NCBI RefSeq assembly: GCF_903642205.1
Contig: NZ_CAHJWH010000014.1
Coordinates: forward strand, 1 to 35,295
Length of the DNA stretch: 35,295 nt
Direction of reading: 5' to 3'
Source of the DNA: Caulobacter sp. S45
Lineage (GTDB): Bacteria; Pseudomonadota; Alphaproteobacteria; Caulobacterales; Caulobacteraceae
This document shows, one piece after another, positions 2,546 to 24,086 of the stretch. Made by a program: the position numbers and the translations under genes. Under the pieces are notes generated by a model. It saw only the letters and a program-made list of their open reading frames with translations. It did no database searches and was not told where the DNA came from. Every line of letters starts with the position of its first letter. Within the stretch, counting starts at the first letter, position 1.

Positions 2546-3655
2546 TCACTGGGCCGTTTCTGCGACGCGGTCGGCCAACTTGACCCCACGCGCCCCGGCC
2601 AGCCAGGCGGCGAGCTCCGCCACGCCCTCGCGCCATCCCCGTGCAGGCTTCAGCCCCAGCTCGGCCATGGCCCGTCGGTTGTCGGCCACGAAGTAGCGCT
2701 GGTCGCCCGCTCGCCAGTCGGAGAAGTCCAGCAGCACCGGCCGGCCGACCAGCGTCTCGATGTGGGCCAGCAGCCGGCGCAGGCTGACGGCGTTTGCGGG
2801 ACCGCCTCCGAGGTTGAAGGCGCGCCCGCCCACGCGCCCGATGTCGCGCCAGACCGCCATGTAGGCCTCCACCGCATCCTCCACGTGCAAGATGTCGCGC
2901 ACCTGGCGCCCGTCGCCGTAGATGCTGATCGGCTCGCCCGCCAGCGCGCGGATCAGGAAGTGGGCCACCCAGCCCTGGTCCTCCGTGCCCATCTGGCGGG
3001 GACCGTAGATGCAGCTCATCCGCAGCACCGCGGTCGGGAGGCCGAAGCTCCGGGCGTAGTCCAGCACGTACTGGTCCGCCGCCCCCTTGGAGCAGCCGTA
3101 GGGGGTGTGGAAGTCCAGGGGCCGGGCTTCGGACACCCCGTAGCGGCGCACCCCCGGATCGGCCGGAGCGTAGGCGCCGTCCTCCAGCCGCATCTCCAGG
3201 TCGTCGAGGTCGCCGTACACCTTGTTGGTGGAGGCGAAGACCACAGGCGTCGTCCCGCCCGCCGCGCGCAGGCTCTCCAGCAGCGACAGGGTGGCGCGCA
3301 CGTTGACGTCGAAGTCCTCCACCGGGGCGGTAAGGCTGGTGGTGACCGCCACCTGGGCCGCCAGGTGGAACACCGCGCTGGCGTCATGGGCCACGGCGTC
3401 CAGCGAAGACGCGTCACGCACGTCCGCGATCACCGCGGATATACGCTGCGGGTGCCGGCGCGTCAGCCAGTCCAGGTTCTGTTCGACGCCGGCCCGGGCC
3501 AGGGCGTCATAGACCACCACGTCGTGGCCTTCGCGCGCCAGCCGGTCGGCCAGGTTGCAGCCGATGAAGCCCGCCCCGCCGGTGACCAGCACCGGGCGGA
3601 CGGACCTGATCGCGGGAGCGGACACGTTGGGGTCCGAGACGCTCTCAGCGCTCAT
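2546..3655 (-). CDS. NAD-dependent epimerase, CDP-paratose 2-epimerase-like
   Basis: A 369-residue extended short-chain dehydrogenase/epimerase. The NAD-binding TGGAGFIG lies at residues 25-32, and the catalytic YxxxK is Y186/K190 (YGCSK). The STNKVYG stretch near 142 and the GPRQMGTEDQGWVAHF block resemble CDP-paratose/CDP-tyvelose 2-epimerases (RfbE type), so the likely substrate is a nucleotide sugar epimerised at C2; the exact sugar is not settled by sequence. ATG 3655 overlaps the upstream epimerase's TGA (ATGA), so I prefer it to a longer N-terminal extension that is Arg/Gly-rich and lies in the upstream gene. It is the second gene of the leftward operon. Confidence 0.9.
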   Translation of the reverse strand: MSAESVSDPNVSAPAIRSVRPVLVTGGAGFIGCNLADRLAREGHDVVVYDALARAGVEQNLDWLTRRHPQRISAVIADVRDASSLDAVAHDASAVFHLAAQVAVTTSLTAPVEDFDVNVRATLSLLESLRAAGGTTPVVFASTNKVYGDLDDLEMRLEDGAYAPADPGVRRYGVSEARPLDFHTPYGCSKGAADQYVLDYARSFGLPTAVLRMSCIYGPRQMGTEDQGWVAHFLIRALAGEPISIYGDGRQVRDILHVEDAVEAYMAVWRDIGRVGGRAFNLGGGPANAVSLRRLLAHIETLVGRPVLLDFSDWRAGDQRYFVADNRRAMAELGLKPARGWREGVAELAAWLAGARGVKLADRVAETAQ

Positions 3656-4764
3656 GCCACCAGGCCCCGGACTTCCAGTTCGCGCCGCGCCTCGCCGACG
3701 CGATCGGTCGCTTCCTGGCGGGCCACCCATTCCGCCAGTTCCGCCAGGCCGGCGTCGAAGTCCTGCCGGGGCGTGTAACCGAGCTGTTGGCGAGCCTTGG
3801 AGATGTCGGGAATGCAGTGGCGGATGTCGCCGACGCGGGTCTTGCCGGTCACTTCCGGCGCCACGCCGGGGCGGCCCATGGCGCGGGCCACCGCTTCCGC
3901 CACCTGGTTGACGGTCTTCTCCTCCCCACCGCCGATGTTGAACACCTCTCCGTCCGCCGCGTCCTGCTCGAGAGCCAGGGCGAAGGCCTCGGCCACATCG
4001 CCGACATGGACGAAGTCGCGGCGCTGTTCGCCGTCCTCGAAGACCATGGGCGGCTGGCCATTGGCGATGCGCGAGGAGAAGATGGCGAGCACCCCGGTAT
4101 AGGGGTTGGAGAGCGCCTGGCCCGGGCCGTAGACGTTCCAGAGCCGCAGCGCCGAACAGGCCATGCCATAGGCCGGGGCCACGGTGAGGGTGAGCCGCTC
4201 CTGCACGTATTTTCCAAGCGCATAGACGGAGGCGAGCGCCGGCCGCTTGCCCTCCGGCGTCGGCATGGGGACCAGCGGGCGGCCCTCGGCGTCGACGGGG
4301 TCCCAGCCGCCGTCGCGCGCGCGGCCAGCCCGCACGACCTCCTCGTACAGCCGCCCGTCGAGGTCCCGGTACAGCCCCTCGCCGTAGATGCTCATGGACG
4401 AGGCCGTGACGATCTTGCGGACGGGCCTGTCGATCAGCTGCTGCAACAGCACGGCGGTGCCGTAGTCGTTGACGGAGGTGTAGCGGTCCACCGCATACAT
4501 GCTCTGGCCCACGCCCACCTCCGCGGCGAGATGGATGACGCTGTCGCAGCCCTTCAGCGCCGTGATCAGCGTGCTCTCGTCGCGGATGTCGCCGATGACC
4601 AGTTCCGCATCGGCCGCAAGCTCGGCAGGGCGGCCGCGCCCCTGGTGCACCTGCTCGATCAGCGCGTCGAGGACGCGGACGCGATGGCCCCGGGCCAGCA
4701 GCGCCTCGGACACGTGCCGACCTATGAAGCCGGCGCCGCCGGTGATCAGGACGGTTTCCCCCAA
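3652..4764 (-). CDS. NAD-dependent epimerase/dehydratase, dTDP-L-rhamnose 4-epimerase-like
   Basis: A 370-residue extended SDR with TGGAGFIG at residues 8-15, the Ser-rich TASSMSIYGEG strand near 120-130 and the catalytic pair Y181/K185 (YALGK). The insert between the Ser strand and YxxxK, and the RLWNVYGPGQALSNPYTGV block, match nucleotide-sugar 4-epimerases acting on dTDP-6-deoxyhexoses; substrate assignment is tentative. It is the first gene of the leftward operon, opposite the inositol-phosphate synthase across a 215 bp shared upstream region. It is clearly different in sequence from the neighbouring epimerase, so the two probably catalyse successive or parallel steps rather than being a recent duplication. 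Confidence 0.9.
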   Translation of the reverse strand: MGETVLITGGAGFIGRHVSEALLARGHRVRVLDALIEQVHQGRGRPAELAADAELVIGDIRDESTLITALKGCDSVIHLAAEVGVGQSMYAVDRYTSVNDYGTAVLLQQLIDRPVRKIVTASSMSIYGEGLYRDLDGRLYEEVVRAGRARDGGWDPVDAEGRPLVPMPTPEGKRPALASVYALGKYVQERLTLTVAPAYGMACSALRLWNVYGPGQALSNPYTGVLAIFSSRIANGQPPMVFEDGEQRRDFVHVGDVAEAFALALEQDAADGEVFNIGGGEEKTVNQVAEAVARAMGRPGVAPEVTGKTRVGDIRHCIPDISKARQQLGYTPRQDFDAGLAELAEWVARQEATDRVGEARRELEVRGLVA

Positions 4765-4979: not shown

Positions 4980-6104
4980 ATGGACGGAACTCTGCCGATC
5001 GGCCGCAAAACGGTGCGCCTGGGGATCGTGGGCGTGGGCAACTGCGCTTCCTCGCTGGTGCAGGGCTTGAGTTTCTACGGCTCCACGCAATCGAACGCGC
5101 CCGTGCCCGGGCTGATGCACCTGGAGCTTGGCGGCTACCACGTCGGTGATATCGAGGTGGCGTCGGCCTTCGACGTGACCGCCCCCAAGGTCGGTTGTGA
5201 CGTGGCGGAGGCGATCTTCGCAGTTCCCAACAACACCCACACCTTCGCCCAACCGCCCCGGACAGGGGTCACGGTTCAGCGCGGCCCGACGCTCGATGGC
5301 ATTGGCAAGTACGTGCGCGACAACGCCGCGGACTCCGATGCGCCGGTGGTGGACGTGGCCGAGGCGCTGCGCCGATCGGGCACCGAGGTGGTGGTCTCCT
5401 ATCTGCCCGTGGGCTCTCAGGCGGCGACGGAATACTACGCCGAGGCGGCGCTGAAGGCCGGCTGCGCCTTCGTCAACTGCGTGCCGGTGTTCATCGCCTC
5501 CGACCCCGTCTGGCGAGGCCGGTTCGAGACCGCCGGCCTGCCGATCGTGGGCGACGACATCAAGAGCCAGGTGGGCGCCACCATCGTCCACCGCATGCTC
5601 GCCAACCTGTTCCGCGAGCGCGGCGTGCGGCTGGACCGGACCTACCAGCTCAATGTCGGCGGCAATTCCGACTTCCAGAACATGCTGGAGCGGGAGCGGC
5701 TGGAGTCGAAGAAGATCTCCAAGACCCAGGCCGTCACCAGCCAGCTCGGCGAGCCGCTGCCGGCGGGCGACGTGCACGTGGGGCCGTCGGACTTCGTGCC
5801 TTGGCTCACCGACCGCAAGTTCGCCTTCATCCGGCTGGAGGGCACCACCTTCGGCGGCGTGCCGCTGAACTGCGAGCTGAAGCTCGAGGTCTGGGACAGC
5901 CCCAACTCCGCCGGCGTGGTGATCGACGCGGTACGCTGCGCCAAGCTGGCGCTCGACCGCGGCATCGGCGGCGCGCTGACCGGGCCGTCCTCCTACTTCA
6001 TGAAGTCGCCTCCCACACAGTTCACCGACGAGGAGGCGCGTGAGCGGACCGAGAGCTTCGTCGCCGGCGAGGGGGTCGCCGAAGGCGCCGGCGTCGGGGA
6101 GTGA
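4980..6104 (+). CDS. ino1: myo-Inositol-3-phosphate synthase
   Basis: A 374-residue protein that converts glucose 6-phosphate to 1D-myo-inositol 3-phosphate with bound NAD, in the cytoplasm. GVGNCASSL at residues 18-26 is the NAD-binding loop of the short bacterial (actinobacterial-type) form. NVGGNSDF near residue 225 and the following [11 protein letters not shown] stretch carry the conserved lysines of the active site. Length fits the short bacterial form rather than the >500-residue eukaryotic one. ATG 4980 gives a small N-terminal extension; GTG 5012 is a possible alternative. It opens the rightward arm and its TGA overlaps the next gene's GTG. Most proteobacteria lack inositol-containing lipids, so its presence among sugar enzymes implies a dedicated inositol product. 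Confidence 0.92.
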
Positions 6105-6691
6105 CGACCACCTTCCACCTCGTGCGCCACGGCAGCCACGACCGCCTCGACCGCACCCTCTGCGGTCGCATGGACGGTGTGCGCCTCGGTACCGCCGGAC
6201 AGAAGGAGGCGCAGGGCGCAGCGGAGCGGCTGGCCGGCGACGATCTGGCGGCCGTGGTCAGCAGCCCGCTGGAGCGATGCCGCCAGACGGCCGACGCCGT
6301 AGCCGAGGGCCACGGCCTGCCGGTCGAGACGGACGCCGCCTTCGTAGAGCTCGACTTCGGCGAGTGGACCGGCCTGTCCTTCACCGAGCTGGAGGCCGAT
6401 CCGCGCTGGGAGCCTTGGAACAGCCGTCGCAGCCTGAACCGGCCGCCCGGCGGCGAAAGCCTGGGCGAGGCGCAGATGCGCAGCGTACGGGGCCTGGAGC
6501 AGCTCCGCGCCCGCCATCCCGGACAGGCGGTCGCGGTCGTCACGCACAGCGACATCATCAAGGCCCTCGCCGCGCACGTCCTGGGCCTGAACCTCGACCT
6601 GTACCATCGCTTCGACGTCGACCCGGCCTCCATCACCACCCTGGCGCTGGGGGACTGGGGCGCGAAGCTGATCCGCCTCAACCTCCGCTAA
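6101..6691 (+). CDS. Histidine phosphatase (phosphoglycerate mutase-like) family protein
   Basis: A 196-residue histidine phosphatase. The LVRHG motif gives the phosphorylated His10, and VVTHSD supplies the second active-site histidine, H149. [11 protein letters not shown] and ELDFGEWTG are typical of cobC/PhoE-type phosphatases rather than true mutases. The GTG start overlaps the stop of the inositol-phosphate synthase (GTGA), so translation is coupled. An attractive inference is that it dephosphorylates inositol 3-phosphate or another cluster sugar phosphate; family members have diverse small-molecule substrates, so this is not shown by sequence. The 3' end, including the stop, is copied in a short tandem repeat. 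Confidence 0.88.
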
Positions 6692-6723
6692 GCCCGAACT
6701 CCGCTAAGCCCGAACTCCGCTAA
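6682..6723 (+). repeat. 16-bp tandem repeat (about 2.6 copies) over a stop codon
   Basis: The unit ACTCCGCTAAGCCCGA (first copy with one mismatch) is repeated so that CTCCGCTAA occurs three times. The first TAA ends the histidine phosphatase; the others lie in the 59 bp gap before the glycosidase gene. It looks like replication slippage. I see no regulatory role. Confidence 0.85.
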
Positions 6724-6750
6724 ATCTGGCGTCAGAAAGGACCCCGCCCT

Positions 6751-7659
6751 GTGATCGAAGCGGCGATGATCTGGAACGAACCCAACAACAAGTCGCATTG
6801 GGACCCGGAGGTCGACCCGGACTGGTCTCGCTTCGGCGAGCTGGTGACCCGCGCAGGCTCGGCGATCCGCTCAGCCAACCCACAGCTGCCGCGAGTGCTT
6901 GGCGGCATGTCGCCGATCGACCCGGACTTCCTCCGCAAGCTTGAGCGCTACGGCGCCATGAACGCCCTGGACGCGGTGGCCGTGCACGGCTTCCCGCTGG
7001 ACTGGAACCTGTGGTCCATCAATGACTGGCCGGCCAAGCTGGCGGAAATCACCTCCGTCACCCATAAGCCCGTCTGGGTCAGCGAGGTGGGGGTCTCCTC
7101 CTTCGGGGCCGAGGAGGTGCAGGCCTGGGGCCTGACCCGCACCGCCGAGCTGCTGCACGGCCGCTCCCCTCGGGTGCACTGGTACTCGCTCTACGACCTG
7201 CCCCGAGCCTGGGAGGCCACCACCCGCCACAAGGAGGCGGAAGGCAGCTCCTACTATCGCCACTTCTACATGGGTCTGCTGCGCGAGGACGGCGCGCCCA
7301 AGCTGGCGCTGGAGGCCTACCGGCCCCATGCGGGTTGGATGGGCCTGTGCCAGTGGTTCCACTTCCAGGACCATCGGCTGGACGAGGCTGTGGGCTGGAT
7401 GAAGGAACTGGGCGTCACCTACCTGCGCACGGGCCTGTCCTGGGCCGACAGCTTCCGACCCGGCGCCCTGGACTGGTTCGACCGTCAGATGGAGGCGCTG
7501 TCAGGCTTCGACGTCACCGTCACCTTCTGCTTCACGCCCGAGCACCTGGGCGTCGCGCCCCACCACAGCAGCGCCCCCGAGCGACCTGAGGACTTCGCCG
7601 AGTTCTGCGCCGCCATGGTGGAGCGCTACGCCCCGGCCCGCGCTGTCGCTGCAGCCTGA
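6751..7659 (+). CDS. Clan-A glycoside hydrolase-like protein with circularly permuted barrel order
   Basis: A 302-residue protein related to (beta/alpha)8 glycosidases of the GH39/GH5 type. IWNEPN lies at residues 7-12, putting the usual beta-4 acid/base glutamate at E10. E112 in VSEVG is in the position of the beta-7 nucleophile. The barrel then closes at GLLREDGAPKLALEAY (about 175-190), as a normal C-terminus would. From residue 195 the protein continues with GWMGLCQWFHF and LGVTYLRTGLSW, which look like strands 1-3 of such a barrel, ending with the helix that should precede strand 4. So the missing N-terminal third sits at the C-terminus. GTG 6751 follows an AAAGGA about 9 nt away; there is no room upstream for a normal N-terminal part. 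No signal peptide is seen. The substrate may be the glycan made by this cluster. Confidence 0.75.
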   Translation: MIEAAMIWNEPNNKSHWDPEVDPDWSRFGELVTRAGSAIRSANPQLPRVLGGMSPIDPDFLRKLERYGAMNALDAVAVHGFPLDWNLWSINDWPAKLAEITSVTHKPVWVSEVGVSSFGAEEVQAWGLTRTAELLHGRSPRVHWYSLYDLPRAWEATTRHKEAEGSSYYRHFYMGLLREDGAPKLALEAYRPHAGWMGLCQWFHFQDHRLDEAVGWMKELGVTYLRTGLSWADSFRPGALDWFDRQMEALSGFDVTVTFCFTPEHLGVAPHHSSAPERPEDFAEFCAAMVERYAPARAVAAA

Positions 7660-7663
7660 CCAG

Positions 7664-8173
7664 GTGAGCCCGACCGCCCTTGCGGGGTTGGACCTGGACT
7701 GGGTCACGCCCGGCCTGGCGGTGGGCGGCGCGTTCCCGACGTCGGCCATCCCGACCCTGGCGGCTGGGGGCGTGGGCGCCGTGATCGACTTGCGCAGCGA
7801 GGCCAAGGACGATGCGGCCGGGCTTGCCCGAGCGGGTATCGCGTTGCTGCACCTGCCGACGCAGGACCATTGCGCGTTGAGCCAGCGGGACATGGACGCC
7901 GGCGTCGCCTTCGCTCTGCCCAGGCTCGGCGACGGCGGGGTGCTGGTCCACTGTCGCGAAGGGATCGGCCGTTCGGTGACGCTCTGTCTATGCATCCTGA
8001 CGGCGACAGGCATGACGCCGCTGCAGGCCATGCGGACGATCAAGGCGGCGCGCGTCTGGGCGTCCCCGAGTCCACCCCAGTTCGACGCCTTCGCCACCTG
8101 GCTGGGACGGCGCGGCATCGAGGCTCCGCCCTTCCAGGCGCTCGCCGCCATCGCCTACAGCCACCTGGGCTGA
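7664..8173 (+). CDS. Dual-specificity/tyrosine-type protein phosphatase-like protein
   Basis: A 169-residue cysteine phosphatase. The P-loop HCREGIGRS (H96, C97, R103) matches HCxxGxxR, with D68 in PTQDHCALS as a likely general acid. The start is GTG 7664, just 4 nt after the preceding stop, and the stop lies 3 nt before the next gene, so it is inside the operon. Members act on phosphoproteins, but bacterial ones also act on phospholipids and phosphoinositides. Next to an inositol-phosphate synthase and a kinase-like domain, an inositol, sugar or lipid phosphate is a reasonable but unproven substrate. Confidence 0.82.
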   Translation: MSPTALAGLDLDWVTPGLAVGGAFPTSAIPTLAAGGVGAVIDLRSEAKDDAAGLARAGIALLHLPTQDHCALSQRDMDAGVAFALPRLGDGGVLVHCREGIGRSVTLCLCILTATGMTPLQAMRTIKAARVWASPSPPQFDAFATWLGRRGIEAPPFQALAAIAYSHLG

Positions 8174-8176
8174 GCC

Positions 8177-9946
8177 GTGCTGGTCTACGGCGACCAGGTC
8201 CGCATCGCCGACCCGCGCCAGGTCCTGGCCGGGCTGCGCCATGGTTTGCAGACCCTGGACACGGTCGGGCCGCCTGTGGAGCGTCACTCCCGCCTGGCCA
8301 GCCTCTTCATTTCCGCCGGCGAGCTGGCCCAAGGCCTCGCAGACGCCGCCTCCGCCGGCCAGGGCGGCGACGGCCCAAGTGCTGAGGAAGACGCTGCGAT
8401 CGCACTCGTCATGGCGCTGGCCAGCGCGACGCTCGACTCCTGGCGGGCCTTGGGAGAGGAGACTGTCGCGCCAGCGGTCGAGAAGGTCGCGCTCCGAGAC
8501 GCCCTGACCTGCGTCGAAGGACTGCCCCTGCCCGCCGAGGTGGAGCTGAAGACCGCCGAGGGCTATGCCTTCTACGCCCTCTACCCGGAGGCCTACGCCG
8601 AGGCGGCCCTTCAGCTCCCGTCCTGCGGCGAGCATCGGGTAATCGGCATCCGCAGCATCGGCTCAGGCCTCGCAGCCGTGGTGGCTGCAACGCTTGGCGC
8701 TGGCCGGCCCACGACGGTGCGCCCCGTCGGACATCCCTTCCAGCGCCGCCTGCAGCTTACCTCCCGCTTGGAAACCAGCCTGAAGGCGAGCGCCAAGAGC
8801 CGGTTCATCGTCGTGGACGAGGGGCCTGGCCTGTCGGGAAGTTCCTTCGGCGCAGTCGCCGACGCGCTGGAGGGCCTGGGGGCGGCTCCGCCCCGGATCA
8901 CCTTCTTGCCCGGCCACGGCGGCGAGCTCGGTTCGAAGGCGAGCGAGGCGCATCGCGCCCGGTGGGCCACGGCTGAGCGCCCCTGCGTGAGCTTCGATAC
9001 CCTCGTCCTGCGCGCCGAGGCGCCCGGGCACAGGCTGCAGTCCTGGTTCGCGGACCTGACGGGCGGGGAAGACGCGTCCCTGATCGAGGTCTCCGGAGGC
9101 GCCTGGCGAGCGCACCGCTATGCGGAAGAGGCCGCCTGGCCCGCTTCCAACACCCACCAGGAGCGGCGCAAGTTCCTCCTGCGGGGTCCGGCAGGAACCT
9201 GGCTGCTGAAGTTCGTGGGCCTGGGCGCTGCGGGCGAGCGCGCCTTCGCCCAGGCCCAGGCCCTGGCGGGCGCAGGCTTTGCGCCCCAGGCCAGCGCGCT
9301 GCGCTACGGCTTCCTCGCCCAGCCCTGGCTGGCGGACACCCGTCCCCTGCAGCTCCGCCCTGAGGATCGGCACGCCTTCGTCCGGCGGCTGGGCGACTAT
9401 CTCGGCTGGCGGGCGGAGCATCTGCCGGCTCCCGATCGCGCCGGCGCATCCTTGACGACCCTGCTGGAGATGGCGCGCGTCAACGTCGCCGAATCCCTGG
9501 GCGGGGCGGCCGCGAGGTCCCCCGCCTTGGCGGAGGCCCTCTGGACGTCGGCGACGCCGCTCCGTCGCGTCTGGACGGACAATCGGCTGCACGCCCACGA
9601 GTGGCTGGAGCAGGGCGAGGGCGGCTGGCTCAAGGCCGACGGGGTGGATCATGCAGCCGCACACGACCTGATCGGCGCCCAGGACATCGCCTGGGATCTC
9701 GCCGCCGCAAGATCGGAGTTCGAGCTGGAGGTGTCCGAGGCGGCGCTCCTTCTGGCCATCGTGCGGGAGCGGGCGGAGGTCGATCCCGACCTGGTCGCCT
9801 TGCTTGAACCCATCTACCTGGCCTTCCAGCTGGGGGTCTACACCCTGGCGGCAGAAGCTCATGGCGCCTGGCCCCAGGAACGCGTGCGCCTCCAGCGCAT
9901 GGGCGCGGCCTACCGGCGCCGCTTGTCCAGGCGGCTATTCGAATGA
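8177..9946 (+). CDS. Phosphoribosyltransferase-like domain fused to APH-like kinase domain
   Basis: A 589-residue two-domain protein with a GTG start 3 nt after the phosphatase stop. The first half holds a type I phosphoribosyltransferase-like fold: RVIGIRSIGSGL near residues 152-163, then FIVVDEGPGLSGSSF at 210-224, equivalent to the PRPP-binding loop (hydrophobics, acidic pair, small residues). The second half looks like an aminoglycoside-phosphotransferase/choline-kinase fold: a WLLKF strand with K345, an LKADGVDHAAAHD block near 488-500 and a DIAWD motif from D503 that would bind metal. It could therefore attach a phosphoribosyl group and phosphorylate a product or substrate, but both reactions are inferred from domain type. 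The usual APH catalytic HxDxxxxN motif is not seen in its normal form. I know no characterised protein of this layout. Confidence 0.72.
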   Translation: MLVYGDQVRIADPRQVLAGLRHGLQTLDTVGPPVERHSRLASLFISAGELAQGLADAASAGQGGDGPSAEEDAAIALVMALASATLDSWRALGEETVAPAVEKVALRDALTCVEGLPLPAEVELKTAEGYAFYALYPEAYAEAALQLPSCGEHRVIGIRSIGSGLAAVVAATLGAGRPTTVRPVGHPFQRRLQLTSRLETSLKASAKSRFIVVDEGPGLSGSSFGAVADALEGLGAAPPRITFLPGHGGELGSKASEAHRARWATAERPCVSFDTLVLRAEAPGHRLQSWFADLTGGEDASLIEVSGGAWRAHRYAEEAAWPASNTHQERRKFLLRGPAGTWLLKFVGLGAAGERAFAQAQALAGAGFAPQASALRYGFLAQPWLADTRPLQLRPEDRHAFVRRLGDYLGWRAEHLPAPDRAGASLTTLLEMARVNVAESLGGAAARSPALAEALWTSATPLRRVWTDNRLHAHEWLEQGEGGWLKADGVDHAAAHDLIGAQDIAWDLAAARSEFELEVSEAALLLAIVRERAEVDPDLVALLEPIYLAFQLGVYTLAAEAHGAWPQERVRLQRMGAAYRRRLSRRLFE

Positions 9947-10064
9947 AGCTCGCGGCGCCCGGACCACGCGCCGCAGTGACGTCGGCCATCGCGCCTTGAT
10001 CCCGCGTCCAAGCTCGCCGAAGACGGGGCCCGAAGCGACGGTGACGGGTGGAGGCGGCGAATAC

Positions 10065-11207
10065 ATGGCGGAAACGACTCTCGGCGCGCTCTCGATGGCT
10101 TGGAAGCGATGGCTGTTCGACGATGCGCTCCCGCTCTGGGCCTCCGCCGGCGTCAACCCGGCCACCGGAGCCTTCGAGGAGGCGATCGGGTGGGACGGCG
10201 CGTTCGTGCCGGCGCCCCTGCGCGCCCGGGTCCAGGCGCGACAGGTCTACGTCTTCGCCACCGCCGGCGCCCTGGGCTGGCCGGGTCCCTGGCGGGAGCG
10301 GCTGCAGGGCGGCCTCGACTTCATCGCCCATTATCGTCGCCCGGACGGTCTATACCGGACCAAGGTGGATCGAGCTGGTTCGCCGGTCGACGACACCCCG
10401 GTCCTCTACGACCAGGCCTTCTTCCTGTTCGCCGCGGCCGCAGCCGCACGCCTCGCTCCGGCGCAGGAGGCGGCGCTGGAAGCAGACGCCCTCGCCCACC
10501 TGAACGCGGTGGAGCGTCACTTCCGCCACCCGAGCGGTGGCTTCTGGGAGGCCGACGCTGATCGTCCGTTCCAGTCCAACGCGCACATGCACCTTCTCGA
10601 GGCGATGCTCGCCTGGGAGGAGCTCACCGGACGCCCACGCTGGCGCGACGCGGCCGATCGCATCGTCGAGCTGTGCCTGGACCGCTTCATCGACCGCCAG
10701 AGCGGCGCGCTGCGAGAGTTTTTCGACGCGATCTGGTCGCCGGCGCCGGGCGAGCTCGGCCGGATCGTCGAGCCCGGCCACCAGTTTGAATGGGCCTGGC
10801 TGCTGAAGCGCTGGGCCGACAAGCGCGGTCACGCCGAGGCCGTGACCGCCGCCCGCCGGCTGTTCGAGATCGGCGTCACCCACGGTGTCGATGCCGCGCG
10901 CGGCGTGGCCTTCAACGCGCTGGACGATGGGCTCGCCCCCCTCGATCCCGTCGCCCGTCTGTGGCCGCAGACCGAACGCGTCAAGGCCGCCCTGAGCCTG
11001 GCCGGAGACGATCGCGACGCCCAGGTCGCCGCCGCCTGCGCCGGCCTGCAGCGCTACATCAAGGCCGCGCCGCGCGGCCTCTGGCGCGACCGGCTGAAGC
11101 CCGACGACGCCTTCGTGGATGAGCCCGCCCCGGCCAGCTCCTTCTACCATATCGTCTGCGCGCTCAACGAGCTGTTCGCCGCTGCAGACGCCTTCTCCAG
11201 CCCCTGA
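10065..11207 (+). CDS. AGE-family sugar epimerase/isomerase
   Basis: A 380-residue (alpha/alpha)6-barrel protein of the N-acylglucosamine 2-epimerase / mannose isomerase family. AHMHLLEA near residue 172 and EPGHQFEWAWLL from about residue 236 carry the conserved catalytic histidines and acidic residues of the family. The start was set at ATG 10065, preceded by GGAGG at 10050-10054; a longer reading frame runs back into the upstream gene but has no family similarity. It lies 118 bp after the phosphoribosyltransferase/kinase gene on the same strand, so it may belong to the same operon or have its own promoter. It probably interconverts free sugars such as mannose/fructose/glucose or N-acyl hexosamines. 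Confidence 0.87.
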   Translation: MAETTLGALSMAWKRWLFDDALPLWASAGVNPATGAFEEAIGWDGAFVPAPLRARVQARQVYVFATAGALGWPGPWRERLQGGLDFIAHYRRPDGLYRTKVDRAGSPVDDTPVLYDQAFFLFAAAAAARLAPAQEAALEADALAHLNAVERHFRHPSGGFWEADADRPFQSNAHMHLLEAMLAWEELTGRPRWRDAADRIVELCLDRFIDRQSGALREFFDAIWSPAPGELGRIVEPGHQFEWAWLLKRWADKRGHAEAVTAARRLFEIGVTHGVDAARGVAFNALDDGLAPLDPVARLWPQTERVKAALSLAGDDRDAQVAAACAGLQRYIKAAPRGLWRDRLKPDDAFVDEPAPASSFYHIVCALNELFAAADAFSSP

Positions 11208-23821: not shown

Positions 23822-24086
23822 GTCACCTCCCACGAGAATGGTCGGGCTGCGCGGCAAGGGCGGCGGCCTCGTTTGACGTTTCCTAGGCCGTTCCGGCGCG
23901 CTCGCCAACGGGCGTCCTTGGCTTCGGCAGGTATTTTCTCCAAGCTTGCGACATCTCGGAAGCCTCAAACTGCCCCGAACGCCGTTGTTCCCCATGGCGC
24001 TGTCGCCATACGGACCATTCAAATCCGGGCCGCGGGTCCGGCGTGGCGTTGCCCGCGCCTCGGATCGGCGCTAGGTCGGATGGGCG

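Follow-up and report, generated by a model that had tools for sequence, protein, structure and literature searches.

A widespread natural circular permutation in a glycosidase-like (beta/alpha)8 barrel with ordinary-order sisters in the same pathway

The window analyzed here, a stretch of 35,295 nucleotides that constitutes contig 14 of the 3.26 Mb draft genome of Caulobacter sp. S45, carries on its forward strand a circularly permuted glycosidase-like gene (positions 6751-7659) that encodes 302 amino acids from a GTG start and has 80 homologous loci with the same order. A Shine-Dalgarno-like AAAGGA (6736-6741, forward strand) can be read in the sequence 9 nucleotides before the GTG. On the same strand the gene is preceded by a histidine phosphatase gene (6101-6691), which stops 59 bases upstream of the permuted-gene start, and by an inositol-3-phosphate synthase-like gene (4980-6104; TIGR03450, 537 bits, below the cut-off of 638). 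On the reverse strand lie the genes of NAD-dependent epimerase A (3652-4764), of NAD-dependent epimerase B (2546-3730), a homologue of the domain that is fused to a linear glycosidase elsewhere, and of a TIGR04295 B12-binding radical SAM protein (1255-2589; 695 bits, cut-off 400). A 16-bp tandem repeat, CTCCGCTAAGCCCGAA, present in 2.6 perfect copies at 6683-6723, covers the histidine phosphatase stop codon and about half of the 59-bp gap. Directly downstream of the permuted gene there is a PTP-SAK dual-specificity-type phosphatase (7664-8173, 48.2 bits), which is also found near it in a few other loci. For a 589-amino-acid protein at 8177-9946, neither Pfam nor NCBIfam gave a match (E up to 1), but several other genomes have homologues of it close to the permuted gene. 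Farther downstream, 9804-11207 encodes a member of the N-acylglucosamine 2-epimerase family (265.6 bits).

A homologue search confirmed at least 560 relatives among at least 594 pattern matches. The best 80 of these loci were inspected, and all of them match the window protein from residue 1 with 71-78% identity, place a WNEPN motif at residue 8 and show the swapped order described below. The first-pass annotation had pointed out this motif near the N terminus and had argued that the 59-bp gap leaves no room for a lost N-terminal part, and it was right on both counts: WNEPN occupies residues 8-12 of the window protein (6772-6786, forward strand; all 81 permuted proteins have it at residue 8), and only nine open codons separate the GTG from an upstream in-frame stop. 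The codon at the residue-1 position is ATG in 61, GTG in 16 and TTG in 2 loci. With a start codon in this place in 79 of the 80 loci, a lost or longer N terminus was rejected. The exception, L053, has ACC at the residue-1 position and an in-frame GTG just before it. Open stretches upstream of the gene in other loci overlie the upstream gene in another frame (3 loci examined).

Retaining beta-glycosidases of clan GH-A have their acid/base Glu after strand 4 and their nucleophile Glu after strand 7. In the window protein an Asn-Glu pair (N9-E10) follows the strand at residues 2-7, E10 being the predicted acid/base, and E112 (7084-7086, forward strand), the predicted nucleophile, sits in WVSEVG at the end of the strand at 108-113; both roles are assigned by homology. 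When the window protein and 79 loci (all but L024) were aligned, the WNEPN motif and E112 proved invariant (80/80), and so is much of the sequence around both glutamates. The position of E112 in the predicted model and its invariance agree with the first-pass annotation, which had named it the strand-7 glutamate.

Relatives with the ordinary order came from a class-wide sample comprising 385 genomes. Fifteen of these gave a match: eight with the full-length permuted form, six with a linear form, and G130 with a remote, weak match. The linear relatives share WNEPN and have 30-36% identity to the query over two segments that lie in one long frame, with query residues 190/198-293 encoded first and residues 3/7-191 next. 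Five of the six were translated, and each joins a glycosidase domain in ordinary order to an NAD-epimerase. The linear fusions include proteins of Tistrella mobilis (WP_014747405) and Rhizobium etli CFN42 (WP_011427519), both annotated as epimerases, and the carriers of the linear domain in general are annotated as epimerases or SDR proteins. The fusions and the permuted form thus share the WNEPN motif, whereas they differ in that the former have the strand order 1-8 and are joined to an epimerase and the latter is a free protein.

A linear profile built from the five translated relatives matched the window protein as two swapped segments: profile positions 109-288 aligned with residues 6-187 (96.6 bits) and positions 3-102 with residues 197-294 (53.1 bits). 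When the window protein was rotated at residue 196, the two matches merged into a single domain covering model positions 4-288 with 154.3 bits, and when all 302 rotations were scored the ten best rotation points were 188-197. Shuffling the second segment of the protein rotated at 196 gave, over 200 trials, 96.9 bits on average and never more than 101.3 bits, compared with 154.3 bits unshuffled. The swapped two-segment match to the linear profile was obtained for all 81 permuted proteins and, reciprocally, a linear query matched as two swapped pieces in the eight permuted genomes of the class-wide sample (8/8). The first segment, residues 1-195 (6751-7335, forward strand), corresponds by the linear profile and by PslG residues 156-356 to strands 4 to 8, and the second, residues 196-302 (7336-7656, forward strand), corresponds by the linear profile to strands 1 to 3, the matches of its part-model being weak. 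The best rotation points and the secondary structure of the model place the new junction at residues 185-197 (7303-7341, forward strand). PslG of Pseudomonas aeruginosa is the best PDB relative by sequence (whole-sequence match with the family profile, E 1.6e-6) and could also be aligned in swapped order, with query residues 200-295 corresponding to PslG 25-130 and 4-56 to PslG 133-183, the strand 1-3 match being weak (6.4-7.8 bits). Clan GH-A barrels run from strand 1 to strand 8 along the chain; the order of strands 4-8 followed by 1-3 in the window protein, which the first-pass annotation had proposed, is borne out by the swapped segments and the single domain after rotation and is now near certain.

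AlphaFold2, run on the 80-row alignment, predicted a (beta/alpha)8 barrel with eight strands (residues 2-7, 48-53, 75-80, 108-113, 142-145, 197-200, 224-228 and 254-259), with a pLDDT of 89.1 and a pTM of 0.88; the model is uncertain at residues 161-167. This is not the barrel-less structure against which the first-pass annotation had staked its proposal. The final long helix (279-293) corresponds, in the alignment, to the part of the linear relatives just before WNEPN. The new chain ends fall between helix 3 and strand 4. At the junction, only three residues separate helix 8 (185-193) of the model from strand 1 (197-200), and there is no additional linker. That this connection is short, and that only a single chain was modelled, could be taken in favor of a domain-swapped dimer, with each barrel completed by strands 1-3 of the partner subunit and no chain closing by itself; nevertheless, a short helix-strand turn is normal for the barrel fold and the single-chain model reaches the pTM given above, and we regard such a dimer as improbable.

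In VIA, the single-chain model behaved as expected when a sequential aligner is given a permuted relative. Taken as a whole (residues 3-294), the chain matched generic TIM barrels with Z scores of up to 13.2, at 3.5-4.5 A and about 10% identity, while PslG was found close over model residues 1-195 only (PslG 156-356, 175 residues, 2.3-2.4 A, 23-24% identity). Residues 186-302 modelled alone had a pLDDT of 90.4, and in VIA 46 of the 50 matches listed for them were N-terminal parts of glycosidases, mostly GH1/GH5 as judged by titles, with weak Z scores of 5.0-6.2 that lie below the caution line of 8. A second, fragment alignment was made of the window protein and a hand-picked 41 of the 80 loci. 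Foldseek gave no match under E 0.001 for residues 186-302, its top rows being unrelated proteins. With the whole model against the PDB it listed mandelate oxidases first (TMq 0.34-0.36) and did not include PslG among the 50 matches listed, an order that may also reflect a sequential search with a permuted chain.

Judged by record titles, the 80 loci belong mostly to alpha-proteobacteria, including Microvirga, Roseomonas, Bradyrhizobium, Devosia and Methylobacterium among others, and a few to gamma-proteobacteria such as Steroidobacter. In one locus, L076, the permuted homologue is accompanied by both epimerases, A and B; its short contig carries the label of a Thermoleophilia MAG and is perhaps mis-binned or the result of a transfer. 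In a phylum-wide sample a full-length permuted copy was present in 12 of 398 genomes, all of the class of the window, and in a set of 41 near relatives of the window genome it was present in four, its own genome included. A fifth near relative, G012 (L085/L086), has a broken remnant of the permuted gene that corresponds to residues about 55-178 and consists of two pieces with one internal stop. Compared with the copy of G001 (91% identity), the window gene showed a dN/dS of 0.137, with similar values for its halves (0.148 and 0.120); the permuted gene is under selection and is not a wreck. These data bear on the possibility that the gene is a non-functional damaged tandem pair or fragment, in which the end of a first copy runs into the start of a second. 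Duplication followed by loss of ends is a usual route to circular permutation, so the remote origin of the gene may have looked like this, and the broken copy in G012 also speaks for it. However, the same start and order recur in 80 of 80 other loci at the identity given above, the catalytic residues are invariant, both halves are similarly constrained and the model is a high-confidence single barrel. The first-pass annotation had asked whether other genomes carry the same order and had named close homologues with an ordinary N-terminal half as the sign of damage; all 80 inspected loci carry the order and none has such a half. A damaged pair was thereby already refuted, and we leave it a negligible chance.

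The first-pass annotation had named GH39/GH5 for a structural comparison. The protein is GH39/PslG-like, but it lies below the Pfam gathering cut-off of GH39 (PF01229; 12.2 bits, cut-off 26) and of every other family, among them GH53 (PF07745; 17.4 bits, cut-off 24) and Glyco_hydro_cc (PF11790; 16.8 bits, cut-off 21). Among the 80 members, matches at E up to 0.1 were obtained by 13 for GH39 (best 0.011), by 32 for GH53 (best 0.00089) and by 76 for Glyco_hydro_cc (best 2.7e-5). In three linear fusions Pfam recognized nothing in the glycosidase domain at E up to 0.05. Given these scores and the Pfam-silent linear domain, we file the protein as clan GH-A-like and not as GH39. Its Sinorhizobium (S. 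meliloti) homologue is named 'beta-xylosidase' in some public records.

The relationship between the two forms was examined in two trees. For the careful one, 36 permuted sequences were chosen by hand, from which L026, L028, L059, L068, L131 and L149 (junction pattern) and L132 (start pattern) were dropped; the remaining 29, rotated for alignment, were combined with 16 linear sequences and 6 PslG-like outgroup sequences, L143 and L095 being excluded from the outgroups for their weak profile matches (5.0 and 14.7 bits). The permuted sequences fell on one side of a branch with support 94/85, the linear fusions were grouped with 100/99, and both were separated from the outgroups with 99/97. A quick tree with 49 of the 81 permuted sequences cut by profile coordinates, including some that had been dropped from the careful tree, kept the three groups with a permuted-side support of only 75 (SH-aLRT). 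These moderate supports, together with several very long outgroup branches, make a single permutation event on the stem of the permuted group likely rather than demonstrated. Since the permuted and linear groups are sisters, the tree alone is silent about which order is older, and the fused linear domain could in principle have been re-made from a permuted ancestor. Yet the remote PslG-like proteins match the linear profile collinearly, in one piece, and the order in PslG is likewise linear, which renders this reverse polarity very unlikely, and we retain the permuted order as the derived one.

Full-length permuted and linear forms did not overlap across the 385 genomes (8 and 6, respectively). 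Strict mutual exclusion was nevertheless dropped as a claim because two genomes with a permuted gene carry linear traces. In G243 the end of a linear glycosidase-epimerase fusion lies at a contig edge (L126, G243:C108:1-3000), and in G386 the linear domain is degenerate, lacking either catalytic motif, and still fused to the epimerase (L128, G386:C1:4040000-4046000), the permuted gene of the same genome being intact. In G284 a short sequence matches the tail of the linear form, and epimerase B was not found in the stretch examined.

The neighborhoods of the two forms have much in common. The linear-form cassettes, seen in Tistrella, R. etli, Geminicoccaceae, Paracoccus and Agrobacterium, contain epimerase A, the fusion of the glycosidase with epimerase B, four glycosyltransferases, a UDP-glucuronate decarboxylase or SDR protein, and TIGR04290; some also contain TIGR04295. 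A homologue of epimerase A precedes the linear fusion in Tistrella and R. etli, and the free epimerase B of the window is 63% identical to the fused domain of L096 and L097. In the window, epimerase A, the histidine phosphatase and the inositol-3-phosphate synthase-like gene count as neighbors from this cassette. TIGR04290 scored over its cut-off in 16 of the 385 class genomes, and these include all 14 genomes with either form (14/14, p 8e-24); the remaining two, without either form, are drafts 82-83% complete. It lies directly upstream of the permuted gene in seven of the eight permuted genomes, the exception being the window genome, where it is found on a different contig, accompanied by a nucleotidyltransferase and a glycosyltransferase. 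More broadly, a TIGR04290-like methyltransferase is encoded directly upstream in 71 of the 80 loci (both of the two that were scanned exceeded the TIGR04290 cut-off) and overlaps the start of the permuted gene in L001, L008 and L013. Among the examined flanks of the 80 loci, a zinc dehydrogenase occurred in 32 and a Gfo/Idh oxidoreductase in 33. The permuted and linear forms belong to one uncharacterized TIGR04290/TIGR04295 oligosaccharide cassette. Because stress genes lie near some cassettes, an EcfG-like general-stress promoter pattern was also sought in the window; its single match (23968-23991, against 1.54 by chance) lends no support to such a promoter.

Taken as a whole, our reading, to which we give a probability of roughly 0.85, is that the product of the gene is a (beta/alpha)8 glycosidase of clan GH-A type with a natural circular permutation, which probably arose in one event, and that it serves an oligosaccharide cassette. 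In it the old C terminus (helix 8) is joined directly to the old N terminus (strand 1), and the helix 3-strand 4 loop is where the new ends were created, giving the chain order 4-5-6-7-8-1-2-3. The permuted chain would close into an ordinary barrel as a monomer and thereby bring E10, at the end of strand 4, and E112, at the end of strand 7, into the positions of the catalytic pair of a retaining beta-glycosidase. The permutation event was probably a single one that postdates the common ancestor shared with the epimerase-fused linear glycosidase domains of other alpha-proteobacteria. A chain that starts at strand 4 has no room for a signal peptide, and as the linear sister is fused to an epimerase, both forms should be cytoplasmic. 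The adjoining inositol-3-phosphate synthase-like gene suggests that the oligosaccharide product may be inositol-linked.

The catalysis, substrate and product of the permuted protein are inferred, and the best reading is a cytoplasmic retaining beta-glycosidase or transglycosidase that would process the cassette product, most likely by trimming or transferring its sugars. A different role for the same permuted barrel, as a transglycosidase or as a non-catalytic binding or scaffold subunit of the cassette instead of a hydrolase, is a lesser possibility that we take seriously. The company of glycosyltransferases and sugar epimerases would suit it, and the linear form of G386, fused to its epimerase after losing both motifs, indicates that the domain can persist without them. 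The invariance of both glutamates and of their surroundings in the permuted form (80/80) favors catalysis instead, although sequence cannot separate hydrolysis from transfer. Going beyond the hydrolase or transglycosidase reading, we offer as a tentative speculation that the free permuted enzyme was favored after a single old permutation, that it replaced the fused linear domain, by loss or decay, in many alpha-proteobacteria, and that with the linear form it makes up an undescribed family acting inside the cell on an inositol-linked oligosaccharide; the dead linear domain beside the intact permuted gene in G386 would fit such loss or decay. If this were true, the permuted/linear pair would constitute a natural before-and-after experiment within one pathway.

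In comparison with known systems, PslG is a glycosidase linked to polysaccharide synthesis. It is the best solved relative (PDB 5bx9, 4zn2, 9g17) both by sequence and, over residues 1-195, by structure, but it has a longer chain in linear order, in contrast to the order 4-8 then 1-3 of the window protein. Among the titles and abstract openings listed by a literature search of freely accessible papers, none describes a circular permutation in clan GH-A/GH39-like barrels. Natural circular permutations within the glycosidase (beta/alpha)8 barrel seem to be rare, GH70 being the published case of strand reordering that we found. GH70 enzymes carry their conserved motifs in the order II-III-IV-I, and by this motif order their break would sit about where that of the window protein does, before strand 4. 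The barrels of GH70 glucansucrases and GtfB-type enzymes are described as circularly permuted relative to GH13, so that, as in our case, a permuted catalytic barrel has permuted and non-permuted relatives (PMC11299179). These enzymes differ in belonging to clan GH-H and in being extracellular multidomain proteins that make alpha-glucans, and the window protein has no GH70 row in Pfam at E up to 1. Permuted topologies have been described also for the GH3 glycosidase GlyA1 (PMC5104943) and for GH13 MalS (PMC10223318); judged by these descriptions, they are permuted domain arrangements and not strand reorderings in a single-domain clan GH-A barrel. The window case belongs to another clan than GH70 and is small, with about 300 residues in one domain. 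Family searches miss such an enzyme because a profile built on the linear order recognizes only one of its halves at a time. The analyses above confirm the observation and support its reading as a natural circular permutation that is widespread and has ordinary-order sisters in the same pathway, and since these sisters lie in the same gene cluster, natural proteins can be compared to test what strand order does to folding, stability and activity.
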